From: a virus
IMG/VR virus record: IMGVR_UViG_3300021976_000069
Span: 1 to 25,292 of that record
Length of the DNA stretch: 25,292 nucleotides
Reading direction: 5' to 3' (one strand)
The notes below the pieces were generated by a model. The model had not been told where the DNA came from. It saw nothing but the letters and a program-made list of their open reading frames with translations, and made no database searches. Positions 1,724-17,494 of the stretch are shown one piece after another. Position numbers and translations under genes: made by a program. Position 1 is the first letter of the stretch. Every line of letters begins with the position of its first letter.

Positions 1724-2079
1724 GCGACGTCGTCCTCAACCCGGCGGACCTGGAGCGGCACATTCAGGAGATCTCCCGCCGTATCCACGATGGCGTGAAG
1801 GTCGTCACCGCCGCCGAGCGCGACGCCCGCGAGAAGCGCCGGCTCTACGACCGGGCGTTCGCACTCGCGTACCAGGCGTACGACGGGCCAGCGCACGAGA
1901 AGAAGTACGGCGCCGAGGTTGCCACCACCGAGGAGCGGGCTGCGGCGGAGATCGCTGAGGTCGCGTTCCGGCACGCCGAGCGCACCGCCCGCGCGCTGGA
2001 GAACGAGCTGCGCGCGACGCAGTCCATCGGAGCCTCGATCCGCGCCATGTACGCCGGGGAGCGGGGGTTCGGCGGATGA
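1720..2079 (+). CDS. hypothetical coiled-coil protein
   Basis: A 119-residue protein from ATG 1720, overlapping the upstream TGA by 4 bp. Almost the whole chain is predicted-looking helix with heptad-like spacing of Leu/Ala/Ile among Glu/Arg (for example LERHIQEISRRIHDGVKVV near the N-terminus and AERTARALENELRA near residue 90). There are no Cys pairs and no membrane segment. It sits between the annealing protein and the C5 methyltransferase, with translational coupling on both sides. The function is unknown; a small structural or DNA-binding adaptor is possible. Confidence 0.8.
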   Translation: MSDVVLNPADLERHIQEISRRIHDGVKVVTAAERDAREKRRLYDRAFALAYQAYDGPAHEKKYGAEVATTEERAAAEIAEVAFRHAERTARALENELRATQSIGASIRAMYAGERGFGG

Positions 2080-3224
2080 GCGACCTCGTGCTGGAGAGCT
2101 TCGCGGGACCGGGCGGCTGGTCCGAGGGGCTGCGCCTCGCCGGGTTCCAGGGCCGCGCGGTCGGTGTCGAGCATGACCTGGCGGCGTGCCGCACCGCGAT
2201 GGCGGCCGGCCACCAACGGATTCAGGCGGACGCCGCGTCGTTCCCGCTCGCGCACATGGCCGGCAAGGTCGACGGGCTGATCCAGTCCCCGCCGTGCCAA
2301 GCCTGGTCCAACGCCGGCGACCAGCTCGGCAAGCTGGACCAGCCGCGGGTGTTCGAGCGGATCGCCGCGTTCGACGCGCGCCGCCCGGCGCCGGTGGTGC
2401 AGTGGGCCGACCCGCGGTCCCACCTGACGGCCGAGCCGATGCGGTGGGCGGTCGCGCTCCGGCCGCGGTGGATCGCGCTGGAGCAGGTGCCGCCGGTGCT
2501 GCCGCTGTGGCAGTTCATCGGCGAGCGGCTCCGCGAGCACGGGTATCGGGTGTGGTGCGGGATCTTGTCGGCGGAGCAGTACGGGGTTCCGCAGACCCGG
2601 CGCCGCGCGATCCTGCTGGCTCGCCGCGATGGGCGTCCGGTGGGCCCGCCGGTGCCGACGCACCAGGCGTACCGGGCCGGGCGCGCCCCCGTGGAGATGC
2701 CGGACCTGTTCGGTGAGCAGCTGCCGCCGCCGGTGTCGATGGCCGAGGCGCTCGGCTGGGCTGGCGCGGATCGGCCCGCGCGCACGGTCTGCGGGGACCG
2801 TTCGCCGAGGTGGGCCTACGGCCAGGGCAACAGCTACGCCACCGGCTGGACGTTGGCCGACGTGGTGATGACCAACGGCGGCGACCGGTCGATCGAGGAC
2901 CCGTCGCTCACCATCACCGCCAGCCTCGACAACGGCAACATGCGCTGGACCGCAGGCCGGCCGGCCACCAAGGTGTGCGGCGACGCCCGCCTTGCCCCAC
3001 CCGGCCACCGCGACCGCGAGGGCGGGGAGCGCCAGTTCGGTGAGGACACCGTGCGGGTCACCGTGCAGGAAGCCGCCGTGTTGCAGAGCTTCCGCCCGGA
3101 CTACCCGTGGTACGGCACGAAGTCGGAGAAGTACTCCCAAGTGGGTAACGCCGTCCCGCCGCTGCTCGCGGCCGCTGTGCTCCGCCAGTTCGTGGACACC
3201 TCGGCCGGGGAGGTGGCGGCGTGA
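2076..3224 (+). CDS. DNA (cytosine-5) methyltransferase
   Basis: A 382-residue protein with the ordered motifs of C5-cytosine methyltransferases. Motif I is FAGPGG at 9-14 (SAM binding), motif IV is PPCQ at 72-75 with catalytic Cys74, motif VI is EQV at 136-138, motif VIII is QTRRR at 173-177, motif IX is near EAAVLQSF, and motif X is QVGNAVPP at 355-362. It would transfer a methyl group from SAM to C5 of cytosine in a specific site, most likely protecting phage DNA from host restriction. No partner endonuclease is recognisable next to it, so it looks like an orphan enzyme. The oddity is motif VI: the usual Asn of ENV is Gln here. The region between motifs VIII and IX (about residues 185-320) should be the target-recognition domain. 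ATG 2076 overlaps the preceding TGA. Confidence 0.93.
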   Translation: MSDLVLESFAGPGGWSEGLRLAGFQGRAVGVEHDLAACRTAMAAGHQRIQADAASFPLAHMAGKVDGLIQSPPCQAWSNAGDQLGKLDQPRVFERIAAFDARRPAPVVQWADPRSHLTAEPMRWAVALRPRWIALEQVPPVLPLWQFIGERLREHGYRVWCGILSAEQYGVPQTRRRAILLARRDGRPVGPPVPTHQAYRAGRAPVEMPDLFGEQLPPPVSMAEALGWAGADRPARTVCGDRSPRWAYGQGNSYATGWTLADVVMTNGGDRSIEDPSLTITASLDNGNMRWTAGRPATKVCGDARLAPPGHRDREGGERQFGEDTVRVTVQEAAVLQSFRPDYPWYGTKSEKYSQVGNAVPPLLAAAVLRQFVDTSAGEVAA

Positions 3225-3445
3225 TCGGTCTCGTTCTGGATCCCGTGACCCTACCGCTCAGGTCGGTGTCCCTGCACCCGAAGCACTGCCCGCTGTGCCG
3301 GTCGTCGCAGTCGATGTCGGTGCGGCGGCCGGGGATCTCGGTGGTCCTCACCATCGACTGTCCACAGTGCACAGATGGCGCAGGGTTGTTGCGGCTGCTC
3401 GGCATGTGGGAGCGACCCACCCCAACCACAGGAGGTGCGGCGTGA
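3221..3445 (+). CDS. small zinc-ribbon protein
   Basis: A 74-residue protein from GTG 3221, overlapping the methyltransferase stop by 4 bp. Two Cys pairs, CPLC (near residue 23) and CPQC (near residue 47), are spaced as in a zinc ribbon. Between them are polar and beta-prone residues. The C-terminus ends TTGGAA, the recurrent junction tail described in the findings. The function is unknown; zinc ribbons of this size often bind nucleic acid or other proteins. Confidence 0.75.
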   Translation: MIGLVLDPVTLPLRSVSLHPKHCPLCRSSQSMSVRRPGISVVLTIDCPQCTDGAGLLRLLGMWERPTPTTGGAA

Positions 3446-4965
3446 CGACGTACGCGGAGTTCCTCGCGCGGAAGACGCGGAAGGCGGAGTCGGCCGGTCA
3501 TCGTGTCGAGCTTGGCGAGGTGCACTCGACGCTGCATCCGTGGCAGCGGGAGATCGTGCGGTGGGCGGTCGGCGCGGGCCGGGCGGCGATCTGGGCTGAC
3601 ACCGGGCTCGGGAAGACGCTGATGCAACTGGAGTGGGCGCGGCTGTCCGGGAAGGTCGCGCTTGTGGTGGCGCCTCTCGCAGTGTGCCAGCAGACCGTGC
3701 GGGAAGCCGGCGAGAAGCTCGGCGCCGAGGTGCGATACGTCCGCGACGGCGCCGACGTCACCGGGCCGGGGGTATGGGTCACGAACTACGAGATGGTGGA
3801 CCGGTTCGACCCGGCAGCGTTGGACGCGGTGGTGCTCGACGAGGCGTCCATCCTGAAGCAGTCCGACGGGAAAACGCGCACCAAGCTGATCCAGCACTTC
3901 GCCACGGTGCCGCGCCGGTTGGCGTGCACGGCGACGCCGGCGCCGAACGACAGCGAAGAACTTACCAACCAGGCCGAGTTCCTTGGTGTCACGACCCGGC
4001 GGGAGATGCTCGCCGCCTACTTCGTGCACGACTCCGACGGGTGGCGGCCGAAGAAGCACGCCCGCGGCCCGATGTACCGGTGGATGGCGGAGTGGGCGAT
4101 CGCGCTGCGCCGCCCATCGGACCTCGGCTACCCCGACGACGGGTATGCCCTGCCGCCGTTGGAGATCGTGCCGCACCTGCTGCCGGTCGAGGTCACGGTC
4201 GACGGCCAGTTGTTCGGCGCGGACCTCGGCGGTGTCGGCGGCCGGGCGAAGGTGCGGAAGGCGACGCTGGAACCGCGGTGCGAGCACGCCGCCCGACTGG
4301 TTGCCGCCGAGCCAGCTGAGCCGTGGCTGCTGTGGTGTGGCACCAACGACGAGGCGGATCTGCTCGCGAAGCTGATCCCCGACGCGGTCAACATCCACGG
4401 CTCGCTGTCCCCGGAGGACAAGGCCGCCGGTCTGCTCGGGTTCGCCGACGGCTCGGTGCGGCACCTCATCACCAAACCGAAGATCGCGTCGTTCGGGATG
4501 AACTGGCAGCGGTGCGCCCGCATGGCGTTCGTCGGGCTGTCCGACAGCTTCGAGCAGTACTACCAGGGGATCCGCCGGTGCTGGCGTTACGGCCAGACCC
4601 GCCCGGTGCGCGCACACGTGGTGCTCACCGAGGTTGAGGCGCCGATCGCGGAGAACATCGCCCGCAAGGAGCGGGAAAGCCATCGCCATCAACGAGGCGC
4701 TCGTCGCCGAGATGCGCAGATCAAACCACATGGAGCGCGGCATGAGCGACCTGTACGTGACCGACGACGCCCACGGCAACGGCTGGCACCTGATGTTGGG
4801 CGACGCGTGCGAGAGGCTCGCCGAACTCGACGAGTCCACGGTGGACCTATCGCTGTGCTCGCCGCCGTTCGCGTCGCTGTACACCTACAGCCCGTCGCCA
4901 CGCGACCTCGGCAACTCGACGTCACGGCAAGAGTTCTTCGATCACTATGCGTTCATCATCCGTGA
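3442..4965 (+). CDS. SNF2/DEAD-like helicase, C-terminus frameshifted
   Basis: The open frame gives 507 residues from GTG 3442. Superfamily 2 motifs are complete: TGLGKT at 54-59 (Walker A), VALVVAP (Ia), DEAS at 133-136 (II), TATPAPND at 163-170 (III), ITKPKIASFGMNW (V) and QGIRRCWRYGQ at 375-385 (VI). This is the compact SNF2-type helicase often found in phage replication modules; it should translocate on DNA using ATP. After residue 412 (KERE) the sequence becomes Arg/His-rich and no longer protein-like, while the +1 frame gives a natural helical continuation (AIAINEALVAEMRRS) that reads without a stop into the next methyltransferase. The last 95 residues are therefore probably out of frame. 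The catalytic core is intact either way. The literal stop is used here. Confidence 0.85.
   Translation: MTTYAEFLARKTRKAESAGHRVELGEVHSTLHPWQREIVRWAVGAGRAAIWADTGLGKTLMQLEWARLSGKVALVVAPLAVCQQTVREAGEKLGAEVRYVRDGADVTGPGVWVTNYEMVDRFDPAALDAVVLDEASILKQSDGKTRTKLIQHFATVPRRLACTATPAPNDSEELTNQAEFLGVTTRREMLAAYFVHDSDGWRPKKHARGPMYRWMAEWAIALRRPSDLGYPDDGYALPPLEIVPHLLPVEVTVDGQLFGADLGGVGGRAKVRKATLEPRCEHAARLVAAEPAEPWLLWCGTNDEADLLAKLIPDAVNIHGSLSPEDKAAGLLGFADGSVRHLITKPKIASFGMNWQRCARMAFVGLSDSFEQYYQGIRRCWRYGQTRPVRAHVVLTEVEAPIAENIARKERESHRHQRGARRRDAQIKPHGARHERPVRDRRRPRQRLAPDVGRRVREARRTRRVHGGPIAVLAAVRVAVHLQPVATRPRQLDVTARVLRSLCVHHP
4672..4680 (+). other. probable +1 frameshift site between helicase and methyltransferase
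   Basis: The bases cgggaaagc lie where helicase-like sequence moves from the frame of GTG 3442 to the frame of the next gene. Removing one A of the AAA run makes the helicase continue as AIAINEALVAEMRRS and fuse in frame to the methyltransferase (about 732 residues in total). It could be a real one-base insertion, a sequencing or assembly error, or programmed +1 shifting. The heptamer GGGAAAG is not in the phase needed for a classical -1 slip. Confidence 0.6.
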
Positions 4966-5638
4966 GCAGCTGAGGGTCACGAAGCCGGGCCGGCACGCGG
5001 TGATCCACGTGCAGCAGATCACCACCACCAAGTCCGTGCACGGCGTGGTGGGGTTGACCGACTTCCGCGGCGAGGTGATCCGCGCGTTCATCGACGCCGG
5101 GTGGATCTTCCACGGCGAGGTCACGATCGACAAATGCCCGCAGGCGCAGGCCATCCGCACCAAGGCGCAAGCCCTGATGTTCGTCCAGCTGGAACGGGAC
5201 AGCTCGAAGTCCCGGCCGGCGCTCGCCGACTACCTGCTGATCTTCCGCAAGCCTGGCGAGAACGCCGTGCCGGTGTCACCGGAGGTCACCCGCGACGAGT
5301 GGATCGAGTGGGCCCGTCCGGTCTGGTACGGCATCAAGGAGACCAACACCCTCAACGTGCGGGTGGCGCGCGACAACGACGATGAGCGGCACATCGCGCC
5401 GCTGCAGCTCGACCTCATCGAGCGTTCTGTCCGGCTGTGGTCCAACCGCGGCGAACTCGTGCTGTCCCCGTTCGCCGGCATCGGGTCGGAGGGCTACGTC
5501 GCGGTGCAGCACGGCCGCCGGTTCGTCGGTGTCGAGCTGAAGGCGTCGTACTGGCGGACCGCGGTCACCAACCTGAAGACGGCTGAGCACGCTGTCGACG
5601 AGCCGTCGCTGTTCGACGACACCGGCGGTGCGGCATGA
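4742..5638 (+). CDS. site-specific DNA methyltransferase (N4-cytosine/N6-adenine type)
   Basis: A 298-residue protein with its own start: ATG 4742 has GGAG at 4732-4735 with 6-nt spacing, even though the frame is open back through the helicase end. Motif IV is SPPF at 40-43 in DLSLCSPPF, and motif I is SPFAGIGSEG at 242-251, followed by FVGVELKASYW. Catalytic motif before SAM motif is the beta-class order of amino-methyltransferases. It should methylate the exocyclic amine of adenine or cytosine; SPPF does not settle which. The partner context is a helicase upstream and an HNH protein downstream (4-bp overlap, start at 5635). It probably modifies phage DNA against restriction, or couples methylation to replication. 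Confidence 0.9.
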   Translation: MSDLYVTDDAHGNGWHLMLGDACERLAELDESTVDLSLCSPPFASLYTYSPSPRDLGNSTSRQEFFDHYAFIIREQLRVTKPGRHAVIHVQQITTTKSVHGVVGLTDFRGEVIRAFIDAGWIFHGEVTIDKCPQAQAIRTKAQALMFVQLERDSSKSRPALADYLLIFRKPGENAVPVSPEVTRDEWIEWARPVWYGIKETNTLNVRVARDNDDERHIAPLQLDLIERSVRLWSNRGELVLSPFAGIGSEGYVAVQHGRRFVGVELKASYWRTAVTNLKTAEHAVDEPSLFDDTGGAA

Positions 5639-7566: not shown

Positions 7567-7970
7567 ACGCCCGCGCGAAGCAGCGCGACGAGGCGATCGC
7601 CGCCTGCCCCGTCGTCGACCAGCGGCACGCCCGCGCCGACCAAGCCGTCGCCGACGCCTGCGCGCTCGCGACCGCGGTGCGGGACGACGACCCGCGCGAG
7701 GTGTGGGGCCAGATGTGGCTGTGGCTGGACGAGGACCCGCTGCGCGTCCTGGCCGCGGTCACCGCGCTCGCGGCAATGGTGCCGGTCGACCTGCCGGTCA
7801 CCGAGCTACTCGCCTGGGTCGACGGGCCGGGCATGCACCTGCGTGCGGCGCACGCGGCGTGGGTGCGGGGTGAGCGCGCCGGCTGGGTGCAGATGGGTGA
7901 GAAGGCGTACCAGGCGTGGCGGTATCAGCAGCGGAAGCAGCGCGAGCGCGCAACGAAAGGGGCAGCCTGA
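7563..7970 (+). CDS. hypothetical protein, Trp-rich helical
   Basis: A 135-residue protein starting at GTG 7563 inside the previous stop codon. It is helical and Ala-rich with several Trp (EVWGQMWLWLDEDP) and a basic C-terminus (RYQQRKQRERATKG). Hydrophobic stretches around residues 58-80 (VLAAVTALAAMVPVDLPVTE) are not long or pure enough for a confident membrane segment. It is followed by an HNH gene whose ATG shares one base with its stop. The function is unknown. Confidence 0.75.
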   Translation: MNARAKQRDEAIAACPVVDQRHARADQAVADACALATAVRDDDPREVWGQMWLWLDEDPLRVLAAVTALAAMVPVDLPVTELLAWVDGPGMHLRAAHAAWVRGERAGWVQMGEKAYQAWRYQQRKQRERATKGAA

Positions 7971-8953
7971 TGGCCGTATCGAAACGGCTCCGGTTCGAGG
8001 TGCTGCGCCGCGACGGGCACACCTGCAAGTACTGCGGCCGGTCGGCGCCGGAGGTTCGGCTCACCGTTGACCACGTCATGCCGGTCACGCTCGGCGGCAG
8101 CGACGACCCGTCGAACTTGGTGACGGCGTGCTCGGAGTGCAACTCGGGGAAGTCGTCGGTGCCGGCCGACGCCGTGCGGGTGGCCGAGGTGCAGGAGGAC
8201 GCACTTCGGTGGTCGTCTGCGATCCGCGCTGCGGCGCAGGAGATGCTCGCCAGTGAGGCGCGGCGGGAGGCGGTGCGCTACGAGTTCGCCGAGCACTGGT
8301 GGCGATGGAAGTCCGGCGGGGAGCCGGTGCCGCTGCCGCCGAGCTGGGGGCCGTCGGTTGACAACTTCCTCGCCGCCGGCCTTCCGATGGAGGTTCTCAA
8401 GTCCTGCGTGGACATTGCCATGGGGCGGGAGAAGGTCTCGGCGGACAACACATTCCGGTACATGTGCGGAATCGCCTGGAGCCGTGTCTCTGAACTGCAG
8501 GAGTCGGCGTCTGCCCGCCTGCGCGCTGGCACAAGCCCGGCGCGGGAGACCGTGCAGCAGGGCAACGGCGACGAGATCGTCAGTCACCTGTTCGGCGCGC
8601 TCTCATGGTGTGACCAGCCCGAGATGTGGCCTGTGCTCGTCGGCGAATTCGACATGGAGCACCAGGACGACGAGCACCCCGACGGTTCGCCGCGGTCCTT
8701 CGATCACTGGTCGGACTTCGAGAAGGTCTTCGCGATCTCGGTGTCGCAAGCAACGAGGATCGCAGAACTGGCGGCGCATCAGCACCAGCTGGCGTTGCAC
8801 GGCCTGTCGCCGGAGGCGGCGCGGCGGCTGCGGGCCACAGCTGCAGACCAGTTCCGGATGGCAGGCCAGTTCGAGACCGCGCTGCCGCAGGAGATGGAGT
8901 CGTACGCGGTGCTGCTCGGCATGAAGGAGCACCCGGAAGCGAGGCCGTCCTGA
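7970..8953 (+). CDS. HNH endonuclease with long C-terminal domain
   Basis: A 327-residue protein from ATG 7970, with an AAAGGGG ribosome site 9-15 bases upstream. Residues 5-63 are a textbook HNH domain: FEVLRRDGHTCKYCG, TVDHVMPVTLGG (D34, H35), N49 in DPSNL, and CSECN at 54-58. The remaining 260 residues are helical, with a segment (WGPSVDNFLAAGLPMEVLK, ADNTFRYMCGIAW) that resembles domains found with HNH modules in actinophage replication regions. It sits directly before the initiator-like gene. A DNA-nicking role in replication or recombination is possible, but a homing-like origin cannot be excluded. Confidence 0.88.
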   Translation: MAVSKRLRFEVLRRDGHTCKYCGRSAPEVRLTVDHVMPVTLGGSDDPSNLVTACSECNSGKSSVPADAVRVAEVQEDALRWSSAIRAAAQEMLASEARREAVRYEFAEHWWRWKSGGEPVPLPPSWGPSVDNFLAAGLPMEVLKSCVDIAMGREKVSADNTFRYMCGIAWSRVSELQESASARLRAGTSPARETVQQGNGDEIVSHLFGALSWCDQPEMWPVLVGEFDMEHQDDEHPDGSPRSFDHWSDFEKVFAISVSQATRIAELAAHQHQLALHGLSPEAARRLRATAADQFRMAGQFETALPQEMESYAVLLGMKEHPEARPS

Positions 8954-9897
8954 TGGCGCGTTCGTACGCCCGGCTCATCACGGCGATCTGGCGCAATGCG
9001 GAGTTCCGCGCGTTGGACGCGGGAGCGCAGCGTGCGTACCTGCTGCTCGTGACGCAGCCGAATATCTCGGCGGCCGGCACGCTGCCGCTCACCGTGCGCC
9101 GGTGGGCGGAGATGGCGACGGACACCAGCGTCGCGGACGTCAACCGGTCGCTCGCGGTGCTCGCCGGTGGCCGGTTCATCGGGATCGACTACGCCACCGA
9201 GGAGGTCTTGGTTCGCTCGTTCGTCCGCTGGGACGGTGGGTTTGGCAACCGGAAACGAAGGCCGGTGATCACCGCTGCCGCCGCGGAGGTGACCTCTCCG
9301 GCGCTTCGGACGATGCTCTCCGGGGAGTTCGAGCGGCTCGGTCTGCCGCGCTTGGAGCAGGACCCAGGGCCGGTCACAGAATCCACACGCGACAGTCACA
9401 TTGAGACAAACAACCAGGTGGATAGCCTATCCAATAGGGCATCCGCTAGTGATCCCGATACGGAATGCCGTTCTGACAGGGTTGTGGTTACTGAAGTTGA
9501 GTACATGGGGACCGCAACCCACAACCCTCAACCCATTCCGCCTTCGGCGGCCGACAACGAGCCGGACCCGGTCGACGAGAAGAAGGCCGCGAACATCGCC
9601 GCGCAAGGACTCACCCGCGCGTACACGGATCTGGTACCGCTCTCGAACTTCCCGGCCGTCATGTCGATCGTGAAGAAGGCGCGCGGCACCGGCCGCTACG
9701 ACGACGAGCAGCTGCGCGCGGCGCTGGTTCGCCTCGCCGACGACGGCCGCACGGTCACCACCGACGCGCTGCGCTACGAGCTCGAAGGCTTCCCTGCGGC
9801 GCGGCCGGCGCCGAACCGGACGGACTCGAACATCAACTCGATCCTGCGCCCTGCTGGCGCACCGACTCTCCGTGCTCTTCCTGGAGGTGCCTCATGA
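8953..9897 (+). CDS. winged-helix replication-initiator-like protein
   Basis: A 314-residue protein from ATG 8953, sharing one base with the upstream stop. The N-terminal 110 residues (YARLITAIWRNAEFRALDAG, LPLTVRRWAEMATDTS, FVRWDGGFGNRKRRPVI) look like the winged-helix domain of phage replication initiators. Residues 135-195 are a polar linker of low complexity. Residues 210-275 form a second helical domain (ANIAAQGLTRAYTDLVPLSN; LRAALVRLADDGRTV). Gene structure and position resemble lambda O: DNA-binding domain, linker coded by repeat-bearing DNA, then a partner-binding domain. The DNA of the linker contains a cluster of inverted and direct repeats (9420-9534). The next gene may be the helicase-loader counterpart. 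Confidence 0.7.
   Translation: MARSYARLITAIWRNAEFRALDAGAQRAYLLLVTQPNISAAGTLPLTVRRWAEMATDTSVADVNRSLAVLAGGRFIGIDYATEEVLVRSFVRWDGGFGNRKRRPVITAAAAEVTSPALRTMLSGEFERLGLPRLEQDPGPVTESTRDSHIETNNQVDSLSNRASASDPDTECRSDRVVVTEVEYMGTATHNPQPIPPSAADNEPDPVDEKKAANIAAQGLTRAYTDLVPLSNFPAVMSIVKKARGTGRYDDEQLRAALVRLADDGRTVTTDALRYELEGFPAARPAPNRTDSNINSILRPAGAPTLRALPGGAS
9420..9534 (+). repeat. origin-like cluster of inverted repeats and 7-bp iterons
   Basis: Within the linker of the initiator-like gene the DNA is visibly richer in A/T than its surroundings and contains several symmetric elements. GGATAG-C-CTATCC is at 9420-9432, overlapping CCTAT-CCA-ATAGG at 9426-9438. ACGG-AATG-CCGT is at 9460-9471. GGGTTGTGG (9479-9487) pairs with CCACAACCC (9519-9527). 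Three AACCC units sit at exact 7-bp intervals (9516, 9523, 9530). Such clusters inside initiator genes serve as origins in lambdoid phages; here that is an inference. Confidence 0.5.
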
Positions 9898-14037: not shown

Positions 14038-14540
14038 CCACGATGTCCCTCGACACGCGCCTCACCCTCGACCTGGCGTCCACCCTTACCGGCACCGCAG
14101 ACCTGGCGTCGGTCACGTCGGCGCTGGCCTACCCGTACCGCCTGAAGCTGCCCAACGGCACCGCCGCGGGCCAGGCGTCGAAGGTGTGGGCCGACCACCG
14201 ATCCATCCCCGCGTCGAGCAACGACGACATCGACCTGGCCGGTGTGCTGACCGACGCGCTCGGCGCCGCCCTCACCTTCGCCAGGGTCAAGGCTCTCGTG
14301 GTGCGGGCAGCGGACACCAACGTCAACAACGTGGTGGTAGGTGGCGCCTCGTCCACGTTCGCCACCTGGAACACCGGCACCAACGCCGCCGTCGTGGTCA
14401 GACCCAGTGGGCTGCTGGTCCTCGCCGCACCCGACGCCACCGCGTACGCCGTGACCGCCACCTCGGCCGACCTGCTGCGCCTCACCAACAGCGGCGCGGG
14501 TACCGCGGTGGAGTACGACATCGTGGTAATCGGCGCATGA
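14034..14540 (+). CDS. virion (minor tail-like) structural protein
   Basis: A 168-residue protein. GTG 14034 overlaps the upstream stop; ATG 14043 is an alternative three codons later. The composition is typical of phage structural beta proteins: Ala/Thr/Val/Asp-rich, low Lys, no Cys. Segments such as DIDLAGVLTDALGAALTFAR, TNVNNVVVGG, VVRPSGLLVLAAPDATAYAV and LRLTNSGAGTAVEYDIVVIG match a family I know from phage tail or head-surface proteins. It lies upstream of the HNH protein and the presumed cos gap, i.e. at what would be the right end of the linear genome. Confidence 0.7.
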   Translation: MTTMSLDTRLTLDLASTLTGTADLASVTSALAYPYRLKLPNGTAAGQASKVWADHRSIPASSNDDIDLAGVLTDALGAALTFARVKALVVRAADTNVNNVVVGGASSTFATWNTGTNAAVVVRPSGLLVLAAPDATAYAVTATSADLLRLTNSGAGTAVEYDIVVIGA

Positions 14541-14776
14541 TCGTTCTTGCCTGAACCACCGGGCAAACACTCGCAACTGCAAACGTCGGGGGTGGGCAAC
14601 ATGACCCACCACCAGCACGGGGACAGCAGGCCGGGAGGTAGAGGGCAGGGGCAGGACACCCCCACCACACCCCCCTGTCACCCACCCACCACGGCACACC
14701 ACCTGCACCACACCACGTGGCACAGGCCAGCCATCAGCTACCGCAACGCGACGCGACAGCACGGCAGGACGACGGC
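14541..14776 (+). other. non-coding gap with strand-asymmetric C/A-rich tract and hairpin
   Basis: I see no convincing gene in these 236 bases. GGTGGG (14591-14596) pairs with CCACCC-type bases CCCACC (14605-14610) across an 8-base loop. Purine-rich sequence (about 14616-14655) then gives way to a tract nearly free of G and rich in CAC and CCC (about 14656-14722). The composition is unlike the surrounding genes. It precedes the HNH gene and could hold terminator or packaging elements. Confidence 0.5.
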
Positions 14777-15106
14777 ATGCCGGCCAGTCCCTGCCTAGCC
14801 TGCGGAACACCGACACGGCGAGGCACCAGGTGCACCAGGTGCGGGCACACCCCCTCCTCCATCCACACGCAACGCAAGCGCAACGCTCGTCCATACACAG
14901 CGACCGAGCAGGCAAGGCGCAGGCAAGCAGTGCAGGCATGGGTCGCCACCTACGGCCAAGTGTGCCCAGGTTGGCGAACACCAGCCCACTCAGCCACTGA
15001 CCTGACAGCTGACCATCCACTGGCTGTGGCTGCTGGTGGCGACGAGCGCGGCGATCTGCAGATCCTCTGTCGATCATGCAACGGACGCAAAGCCGACCAT
15101 CAATGA
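14777..15106 (+). CDS. HNH endonuclease of the packaging region
   Basis: A 109-residue protein. ATG 14777 is chosen because AGGA lies just upstream and the protein then begins MPASPCLACGTPTRRG, the usual N-terminal zinc knuckle; an in-frame ATG-like start at 14717 adds 20 unconvincing residues. C6, C9, C19 and C22 make one zinc group. TADHPLAVAAGGDERGDLQI carries the first HNH motif (D/H) and CRSCNGRKAD the last. HK97-type phages carry such a protein (gp74) next to cos, where it works with terminase in DNA cutting and packaging. Codon use is different from its neighbours: lower GC3 and more A. A 179-bp gap with an inverted repeat follows, then the small terminase. Confidence 0.88.
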   Translation: MPASPCLACGTPTRRGTRCTRCGHTPSSIHTQRKRNARPYTATEQARRRQAVQAWVATYGQVCPGWRTPAHSATDLTADHPLAVAAGGDERGDLQILCRSCNGRKADHQ

Positions 15107-15139
15107 CCGTCAACGGTCCACAATGGAGAGTGGGGGGCA

Positions 15140-15277
15140 CCCTGTTTCCGCAGGTCACAGCCCTACGCCATGACCCGTCTCAGGCTTGCCCGCACACGCT
15201 CAAAATGGTGACCTGATCACCATGAAACGCTCACATCGGTTGCAGGTTCACTAGGGCTCTGACCTGCGGAAACAGGG
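15140..15277 (+). repeat. 26-bp inverted repeat flanking a central palindrome (candidate cos/terminase site)
   Basis: The left arm at 15140-15165 begins CCCTGTTTCCGCAGGTCA, and the right arm at 15252-15277 is its reverse complement with 25 of 26 positions matching. The inner 86 bases contain ATGGTGA (15205-15211) and TCACCAT (15217-15223), nearly at the centre. TGACCTG occurs at 15209 and 15260 on the + strand and at 15151-15157 on the - strand. No gene overlaps. Because it lies between an HNH gene and the small terminase gene, the best reading is a cos or terminase-binding site. Other readings are a regulatory operator pair or a large RNA stem. Confidence 0.75.
15205..15223 (+). promoter_or_regulatory. 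palindrome ATGGTGA-N5-TCACCAT
   Basis: Perfect 7-bp arms with 5-bp spacing, near the centre of the larger inverted repeat. The size fits a dimeric protein site such as an operator or a terminase/HNH contact. Confidence 0.5.
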
Positions 15278-15278
15278 G
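15274..15278 (+). promoter_or_regulatory. ribosome site of the small terminase gene within the repeat arm
   Basis: AGGGG at 15274-15278 lies 7 bases before ATG 15286, and its first four bases belong to the right arm of the 26-bp repeat. If the RNA folds across the 86-base gap, this site would be partly paired. Confidence 0.6.
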
Positions 15279-15285
15279 TGTCGAC

Positions 15286-15918
15286 ATGGCGCGTCCTCCG
15301 AAGCCGGTTGAGCAGAAGGAACTGGGAGGGCGGTCGCCGGGCCGGGACTCGGGTGGCCGGCCGTTGCCGGAGACGGTGGTGGAGCTGCCGTCGGCGGCGG
15401 GGGTGCCGCAGATTCCGGACGACTTGTACACGTCGGATCGGGCGAAGACGTGCGCGTTTCTGCCGCTCGATGAGGAGGACCCGCGGGCCGGTGTCGGTTG
15501 CAGCATCTGCGAGGCGGATCTGGCGGTCGCGGTGTGGCGGGAGATGTGGACCCAGGGTCAGGCGTGGCTGTCGGTTCAGCGGGATCGCCGGATCTTGGAG
15601 CGGCTGTGCAAGGCGTACGTCGAGGAAGCGCACCTTCGGTCGGCGCTCGATGAGGACGGGCCGTTCGTGAAGGGCCAACGCGGCGGGCTCGTTGCCCACC
15701 CGGCGGTGGCGATGCTGCGGGTACTCGAGCAGCAGATCACGAAGTGGGAGGGGCTCTGTGGTTTCAACCCCTCCGACGGTGGACGGCTCGGCGTCAAGGT
15801 CGGGAAGGCGAAGGGCGCCAGCGACGCCGAAACTGTCATCGCGCGGCGTGCCGCTCGCCGGGCAGATCGAGCTGCCCAGCGTCCTACCCGCGACCGTCGG
15901 GCTGCCGGCGGCGACTGA
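15286..15918 (+). CDS. terS: terminase small subunit
   Basis: A 210-residue protein from ATG 15286, with AGGGG 7 bases upstream. The segments SICEADLAVAVWREMWTQGQ, RDRRILERLCKAYVEEAHLR, MLRVLEQQITKWEGLCGFNP and SDGGRLGV follow the P27-type pattern of actinophage small terminases. It would recognise the packaging site and load the large subunit. The first 50 residues are Pro/Gly-rich and probably disordered. After about residue 188 third-position GC drops and the sequence is Arg/Ala-rich, because the large-subunit gene begins within it in another frame. The order HNH, gap, this gene, large terminase supports the call. Confidence 0.85.
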   Translation: MARPPKPVEQKELGGRSPGRDSGGRPLPETVVELPSAAGVPQIPDDLYTSDRAKTCAFLPLDEEDPRAGVGCSICEADLAVAVWREMWTQGQAWLSVQRDRRILERLCKAYVEEAHLRSALDEDGPFVKGQRGGLVAHPAVAMLRVLEQQITKWEGLCGFNPSDGGRLGVKVGKAKGASDAETVIARRAARRADRAAQRPTRDRRAAGGD

Positions 15919-17494
15919 TCTCGGCGACGGCGTCTGGCTTCCGGCCGGGTCGCCGCCGCGGTGGCCGGGCCGGTTGCCGCGCGGACCGGAGCTGTGGTTC
16001 CCGGACCGGACATTGTGGACCGAGGACAACACGGACGGGCTGGACGCCTGCGAGTTGATCGAGTCGTACGTCCGGTTGACGAAGGGTCCCCTTGCCGGGC
16101 AGCTGATGCAGCTGCGGATGTGGCAGGGCGACCTGGTTTGCGACGTGCTCCGTCTCGACGACGAGGGGTTCCGGGTTTACCAGACGTACCTGGTGTTGGT
16201 GTCGCGGAAGAACTCCAAGTCGTTGCTGGGTGCGGGTTTCGCGATCGACGGGCTGCTCGATGAGGACGGCGCCGAGGTGTACTCGGCGGCCGGCGACAAG
16301 GAGCAGGCGAAGCTGGTGTTCGCCGAGGTCCGCAAGGCGGTCGAGGCGTCACCGGATCTGGACGCTGCGCAGGGCGGACTGTTCAAGTGCTATCGGGACG
16401 CGATCGAGTACCCGGCGACCCAGTCGGTGTACCGGGCGTTGTCGTCGGAGTCGTTCACCAAGGAGGGCTTGAACCCTTCGCGGGTGCTGTTCGACGAGCT
16501 GCATGCCCAGCCGAACTGGGAGTTGTGGAACGTCCTGAACCAGGGCTCGGACACCCGCGTGCAGCCGCTGGTGTTGGCGATCTCCACGTTCGGGGTGATG
16601 ACTGACTCGACTGGTCGGACGTCGGTGTGTAAGGCGCAGCACGAGTACGTCGAGAAGATCGTTGCCGGTGAGGTGGAGGACCCGCGGTTCGGGGCGCGGA
16701 TCTACGCCACCAGCGGGCACCGCGCTGAGGGGTTCGAGTATCGGGACCCGCAGAACTGGGCGGCCGCGAACCCCGCGCTGGGTGACTTCCTGCTGCTGGA
16801 CAACATGATTACCACCAGTAGGAAGATGCCGGAGGCCGATTTCAAGACGAAGCGCCTGAACATCTGGGTGGTGTCGGCGACGCCGTGGCTTCCGGACGGC
16901 GGATGGTCCAGCTGTGAGGACACCACGGTCACGATCCCCGATCACGCTCGGGTGGTGCTGTCGTTCGACGGTTCCCGCACCGGGGACTGCACGGCGATCA
17001 CCGTCACCACCGTGGCCGAGCAGCCACACCTCGACGTAGTCGACCTGTGGGAGAAGGACCTCGACGACCTGAACTGGCGGGTGCCGCGCGCCGAGGTGAA
17101 GGACGCGATCCGCGAAGCGTGCCGCCAGTGGGACGTCGTGGAGATCGCGTGGGACGAGTTCCTGTGGCTGGACGCCGCGGAGGAGCTCGAGGAGGAGGGC
17201 CTGCCGGTCGTCGTGTTCCCGCAGACGGCGCAGCGGATGGGTCCGGCGACGCAACGGTTCTACGAGCTCGTCGTCGACCAGGGACTGACCCAGTCCGGTG
17301 ACCCTCGGTTCGAGCGGCACGTCGGGAACGCTGTGCTGAAACGCGACTCGCGCGGCGCCCGGATCGTCAAGGACAAGCCAGACAGCCCCCGAAAAATCGA
17401 CCTCGCTGTGTGCGGGGTGATGGGGGTCGACCGTGCGGCGTGGCATCTCCGCAACGAGGAGCAGGAGGTCGCGCCGTGGGCGATGAGGTTGTGA
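15848..17494 (+). CDS. terL: terminase large subunit (ATPase/nuclease)
   Basis: A 548-residue protein from GTG 15848, overlapping the small subunit by 71 bp. I chose 15848 because strong GC3 bias in this frame begins there; GTG 15758 has a better ribosome site (GGGAGGGG) and would add 30 basic, less convincing residues. ATPase: SRKNSKS at 119-125 is the phage Walker A variant and VLFDE at 213-217 is Walker B. Nuclease (RNase H-like): D374 in LSFDGSRTGD, D436 in EIAWDEFLW, and D518 or D528 near the C-terminus. It cuts concatemers and drives DNA into the prohead through the portal encoded downstream. EDNTDGLDACELIESYV near residues 60-74 is a signature of actinophage members. Confidence 0.95.
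   Translation: MPLAGQIELPSVLPATVGLPAATDLGDGVWLPAGSPPRWPGRLPRGPELWFPDRTLWTEDNTDGLDACELIESYVRLTKGPLAGQLMQLRMWQGDLVCDVLRLDDEGFRVYQTYLVLVSRKNSKSLLGAGFAIDGLLDEDGAEVYSAAGDKEQAKLVFAEVRKAVEASPDLDAAQGGLFKCYRDAIEYPATQSVYRALSSESFTKEGLNPSRVLFDELHAQPNWELWNVLNQGSDTRVQPLVLAISTFGVMTDSTGRTSVCKAQHEYVEKIVAGEVEDPRFGARIYATSGHRAEGFEYRDPQNWAAANPALGDFLLLDNMITTSRKMPEADFKTKRLNIWVVSATPWLPDGGWSSCEDTTVTIPDHARVVLSFDGSRTGDCTAITVTTVAEQPHLDVVDLWEKDLDDLNWRVPRAEVKDAIREACRQWDVVEIAWDEFLWLDAAEELEEEGLPVVVFPQTAQRMGPATQRFYELVVDQGLTQSGDPRFERHVGNAVLKRDSRGARIVKDKPDSPRKIDLAVCGVMGVDRAAWHLRNEEQEVAPWAMRL

Follow-up and report, generated by a model that had tools for sequence, protein, structure and literature searches.

In the phiC31-like Streptomyces phages TG1, phiBT1, Lilbooboo and Shawty, an HNH endonuclease gene lies at the right end of the genome and is followed by cos, a short gap and the genes for the small (terS) and large (terL) subunits of the terminase. 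The sequence CCCGGCCCCA stands at the junction of the genome ends, and a block, CACGCTGAGAAYGGGTCAGTTAACGACCCG, is located ahead of terS. The records of TG1, Lilbooboo and Shawty end in CCCGGCCCCA and that of phiBT1 begins with it, an arrangement that is consistent with a 10-nt overhang. In phage lambda, a short DNA motif, the IHF site, occurs at cos and at attP, in both orientations. Two kinds of short bacterial repeat are also relevant here. REP/REPIN sequences are short, intergenic and imperfectly palindromic, occur singly, in tandem or as inverted pairs, and have a RAYT transposase as partner. The DNA uptake sequences of Neisseria and Haemophilus are short, conserved and intergenic, and inverted pairs of these sequences can act as terminators.

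The window analysed in this study is the whole of a 25,292-base virus record from IMG/VR, which is probably a genome fragment. It has a non-coding gap in the order HNH-gap-terS-terL, as in the cos regions of the phiC31/HK97 type, and the portal, protease and capsid genes are located downstream of the terminase genes. The features in and around the gap are as follows.

14717..15106, plus strand: HNH endonuclease gene (PF01844, PHROG 144)
15140..15165, minus strand: left arm of an inverted repeat, with the core CTGTGACCTGCGGAAAC at 15144-15160
15172..15183, plus strand: GACCCGTCTCAG, the GACCCG element and the predicted 10-nt overhang CCCGTCTCAG (15174-15183), from the alignment of relatives, phiC31-like ends and contig starts
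15195..15224, plus strand: conserved block CACGCTCAAAATGGTGACCTGATCACCATG, candidate terminase-recognition element including the palindrome at 15205-15223, from the pattern in TerL relatives and the phiC31-like counterpart
15252..15277, plus strand: right arm of the inverted repeat, with the core CTCTGACCTGCGGAAAC at 15257-15273
15286..15918, plus strand: terminase small subunit gene, terS (PF05119, E = 7e-12; PHROG 83, E = 1.3e-18)
15692..17494, plus strand: terminase large subunit (TerL) frame (PF03354, PF20441; PHROG 9, E = 3e-113)

The match of the HNH frame to PF01844 was weak (E = 0.006, 17.1 bits, below the cutoff of 21.4), and that to PHROG 144 had an E value of 5.5e-6. The TerL frame overlaps terS from 15692; the TTG start at this position was assigned mechanically, and homology with distant relatives starts near residue 86-118. 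No Rfam family came near threshold in 14400-15900. Elsewhere in the window, C5-cytosine and N6/N4 DNA methyltransferase genes were found at 2076-3224 and 4634-5638, overlapped by a helicase-like frame (2992-4965). A second HNH endonuclease frame, upstream at 7916-8953, scored better (PF14279, PHROG 14314) and overlaps a replication-initiation-like frame (8626-9897).

The two arms of the inverted repeat pair at 25 of 26 positions and are separated by 86 bp. By an analytic estimate, about 2.5e-6 such repeats (at least 25/26 matches, gap of at most 200, whole window) are expected by chance, and among the remaining long inverted repeats of the window complementarity ranges from 71 to 89%. A palindrome with 7-bp arms, ATGGTGA-CCTGA-TCACCAT, is present between them at 15205-15223. 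Both the repeat and the palindrome, which had been pointed out in an earlier note on this DNA, are thus real. That note had further proposed that the repeat is the site at which the terminase recognises or cuts the DNA, possibly as a variant packaging signal, and the comparison with related phages separates the two parts of this proposal: the gap is supported as a cos or packaging region by synteny, by a conserved block and by phiC31-type ends, and the inverted repeat is not supported as the site itself.

The nearest relatives of the window's TerL were found in viral contigs (L124 to L130, 64-83% identity), which keep the gene order of the window as far as the contigs reach. Homologues of the HNH protein are present at the equivalent place in L124, L127 and L129, and also in L131 and L134. 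The gaps of L124 to L130 have in common the element GACCCG and, about 20 bp further on, CACGCTCARAA-N7-GATCRCCA. In the window, GACCCG (15172-15177) and the block (15195-15224) both lie between the arms. This block and GACCCG are the sequence in the gap that is conserved among the terminase relatives, and they are lineage-specific: the pattern CRCGCTCARAAYN7WGATCRCC gave seven matches in a scan of 2.9 million viral contigs, and these are the seven TerL relatives. The nearest relatives lack the central palindrome of the window, and in the phiC31-like phages its place is taken by another one, GGGTC...GACCC.

The phiC31-like phages resemble the window in gene order, in a 10-nt end sequence of the CCCG type and in a CACGCTSARAA block, directly ahead of terS, whose tail resembles a palindrome. 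They differ from it in the distance of the block from the end (about 90 bp, against about 12 bp in the window), and their TerL proteins are only about 36% identical to that of the window. The window counterpart of CCCGGCCCCA is GA-CCCGTCTCAG-G, at 15172-15184. Two contigs, L125 and L133, have their first base at the position homologous to the predicted cut, which is consistent with the behaviour of assembled virion ends. We place the predicted cos cut at about 15174-15183 (CCCGTCTCAG) because of the phiC31-type homology and because the contigs of these two relatives begin there. Given the synteny, the lineage-unique block, the homology to phiC31-type ends and the two contig starts, the gap between the HNH gene and terS is very probably the cos region. 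This cos region is itself ordinary in kind.

The arms behaved differently from the elements that they enclose. L124 has a copy of the left arm with identical immediate flanks, in which four of the five tail letters are changed (GAAAC to ACGAT), and has no right arm. L125 has a copy of the right arm; the contig begins within the gap and does not cover the left side. L128 carries a single copy in the opposite orientation, directly after the HNH gene. No copy of either arm was found in L126, L127, L129 or L130, the contig of L126 also starting inside the gap. None of 23 TerL relatives had a comparable long inverted repeat in the same gap, and the TerL relatives in 296 actinobacterial genomes were distant only (37% identity) and are uninformative on the conservation of the arms. 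The earlier note had looked to covariation of the arms in relatives, and had counted a lack of their conservation as evidence against its proposal. Arms are absent or single where the inter-arm block is kept, and therefore no covariation exists; the arms are not co-conserved in L124 to L130. It is very doubtful, then, that the inverted repeat itself is the packaging signal, with the terminase binding symmetrically around the central palindrome. The repeat does lie in the right gap and bracket the predicted cut, its symmetry extends beyond a 17-bp core, and L124 and L125 have each retained one copy, of the left and of the right arm respectively; but L124 lacks the right arm, four relatives are armless, the one copy of L128 is reversed, and the core was found at many loci that have nothing to do with packaging, including intergenic loci far from any cos. 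The likely target of the terminase shifts with this result from the inverted repeat to the inter-arm elements, and the predicted cut can be checked in virion DNA.

Both arms match CTCTGACCTGCGG plus a tail. The core of the arms is CTCTGACCTGCGG(AAAC), and the general form of the motif is (C)CTCTGACCTGCGG with a five-base tail starting at the last G (GAAAC, GTTTT, GTTAT, GCGAT and others). A motif scan of the window found only two copies, which are the two arms. A BLAST search with the right arm returned hundreds of phage records, almost all from actinobacterial phages, and almost all of the annotated phage matches had no gene under the match. Plasmids of the Streptomyces group also carry the motif, and exact scans located it in chromosomes throughout the phylum, often adjoining tRNA genes. 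Among the tails of 120 copies found by a scan with GCCTCTGACCTGCG, GTTTT (21), GTTAT (20) and GAAAC (19) were the most frequent, followed by GCGAT and ACGAT. The 13-mer CTCTGACCTGCGG was present in 85 of the 296 actinobacterial genomes, and its reversed control in 16 (manual count). The 16-mer CTGACCTGCGGAAACG gave 68 matches, in 38 of the 296 genomes, and its reversed pattern none. No enrichment was observed in Pseudomonadota, where the 13-mer occurred in 20 of 299 genomes and was not above control. The number of copies per bacterial genome was low, between 0 and 8 in most, which differs from IHF and is a point against an IHF-like role.

The 16-mer sites were mostly intergenic (34/40, with 18.7% expected), and four of the 40 had a tRNA gene no more than 150 bp away (0.75% expected). 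Intergenic status was set with a codon-scored ORF caller, as a cruder caller gave spurious ORFs in high-GC DNA. The inverted repeat is most likely, from these comparisons of sequence, two facing copies of a dispersed motif that bracket the likely cut, and not the cut site. A simple pair of motifs leaves unexplained that the two arms also agree outside the 17-bp core, both having TAGGG and AGGG; this extra symmetry suggests either that one arm arose from the other, by duplication or conversion, or that pairing was under selection. In the phiC31-like phages, no arm motif was seen in the inspected parts of the cos regions, and the records of TG1, BT1 and Lilbooboo have no copy with 0 mismatches. 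No description of such a motif was found in the open-licence literature, an absence which is not proof of novelty, and the letters of the motif turned up there only in chance primer matches, apart from one primer mentioned below. The arm motif, apparently undescribed so far, is a more interesting finding than the cos region.

In actinophages the motif was often either 30-300 bp away from one of the genome ends or next to the integrase gene. In an evenly spread sample of the matches, 45 of 60 phage records had a copy no more than 300 bp from one end of the genome (manual count), although the phage sample is uneven, with a few clusters dominating. Examples near an end are the mycobacteriophages Saal, LeBron, Redi and Lumos, the Streptomyces phage Alsaber, the Corynebacterium phage BFK20, and Purky. 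The Streptomyces phage Quantum has a cluster of motifs in both orientations (184808-185429), which surrounds the beginning of an apparent terminal direct repeat roughly 1 kb long. Adephagia, Kaine and Joe have the motif beside the integrase, and the phiJoe int-attP primer includes a version of it (PMC5311408). Part of the association with ends and attP is expected without any function, because the scarce intergenic DNA of phages is concentrated near cos and attP.

The interpretation that we favour, with a probability of roughly two in three, is that the gap is an actinophage cos region of the phiC31/HK97 type and that the arms are copies of the dispersed motif, most likely serving as factor-binding sites. 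The terminase would recognise the conserved elements between the arms and cut at about 15174-15183, probably with the assistance of the HNH protein at cos. The two arms would be separate copies of an intergenic motif of the Actinobacteriota, facing each other across cos. Each copy would be a putative site for a conserved, sequence-specific DNA-binding factor, encoded by host or phage, which may act near attP and the ends of phage genomes whichever way the copy points, as the IHF sites do in lambda. Binding of a factor is favoured because the orientation of the motif varies, because most copies have no hairpin partner, and because sites are found between divergent as well as convergent genes (10 divergent and 6 convergent in one set of sites, 8 and 13 among the 40 16-mer sites). 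Taken alone, the claim that a conserved factor binds the arm motif can be made only tentatively, and we know of no protein that binds it. The same caution applies to the broader suggestion that an undescribed, phylum-wide motif, (C)CTCTGACCTGCG with a few discrete tails, might be a factor site which unrelated phages have placed beside their ends or integration sites, two facing copies bracketing cos in this window.

The arm motif is similar to the lambda IHF sites in recurring near phage ends and attP in either orientation, but it is longer, stricter and rare in bacterial chromosomes, and has no known binding protein. If it is the site of a host factor, it would be the actinophage counterpart of the IHF sites. 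If true, this would point to a new DNA-binding protein that is conserved in Actinobacteria (mycobacteria and Streptomyces among them), for which the motif offers a concrete, testable sequence with many natural variants.

A role of the arms in RNA was also considered. Transcription reading through from the HNH gene into the late operon could form a 26-bp stem that is processed by an RNase III-like enzyme or causes termination, and copies elsewhere would act in terminators. The RNA of 15140-15277 folds very stably (-68.5 kcal/mol, z = -7.6), several chromosomal copies are hairpins right after tRNA genes, and stems of at least 8 bp flank 16 of 153 chromosomal copies, with 3.9 expected. About 10% of copies lie in the loops of stem-loops, which counts against the factor model, and because of this minority an RNA or termination role is possible. 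We nevertheless regard it as unlikely, since most copies lack a partner arm, relatives do not keep the paired form, sites between divergent genes are also common, and the gap of the window has neither an intrinsic terminator nor a T-run. A search of 14900-15500 found 0 intrinsic terminators, and the loop would be 86 nt. A hairpin CTCTGACCTGCG-GAAA-CGCAGGTCAGAG was tried as the general form of the motif and rejected; it fits some of the copies flanking tRNA genes, and most copies are without the right half.

The dispersal of the motif in non-coding gaps of phages, plasmids and chromosomes, in both orientations and sometimes as multiple, regularly spaced copies, would also be expected of a short selfish repeat, or of an element resembling a MITE, with no function in the phage. 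This reading appears improbable. The outer ends have no target-site duplication, the arms and spacer do not form one unit, as the spacer is conserved in armless phages, and the same 13-17 bp recur throughout the phylum without a constant flank, unlike species-specific families. A MITE in particular was rejected on the absence of a flanking duplication and the retention of the spacer without arms. REP/REPIN sequences are likewise short and intergenic, with single, tandem and inverted-pair copies, but the arm motif differs from them in being identical across the phylum and in phages, and in its low copy number. It is like the DNA uptake sequences in being short, conserved, intergenic and present in inverted pairs, and unlike them in being much less numerous in each genome and in having no link with a known uptake system.

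Three further arrangements of the motif were observed. At the loci L201 and L264 and in a Bifidobacteriaceae MAG (G007), the copies were regularly spaced at about 158 bp, in the manner of a tandem array; this MAG has 42 copies in a genome of 2.6 Mb. Several Streptomyces-like genomes, represented by nine of the loci, have a common site with a two-copy palindrome of approximately GTTGTCATGTG-CTCTGACCTGCGGAAACGATCCGCAGGTCAGAG, the upstream sequence of which is identical between genomes. In a family of AT-rich viral contigs (nine loci), the motif has the tail GTTAT or GTTTT and adjoins a Crp-like palindrome, TGTGAN6TCACA.
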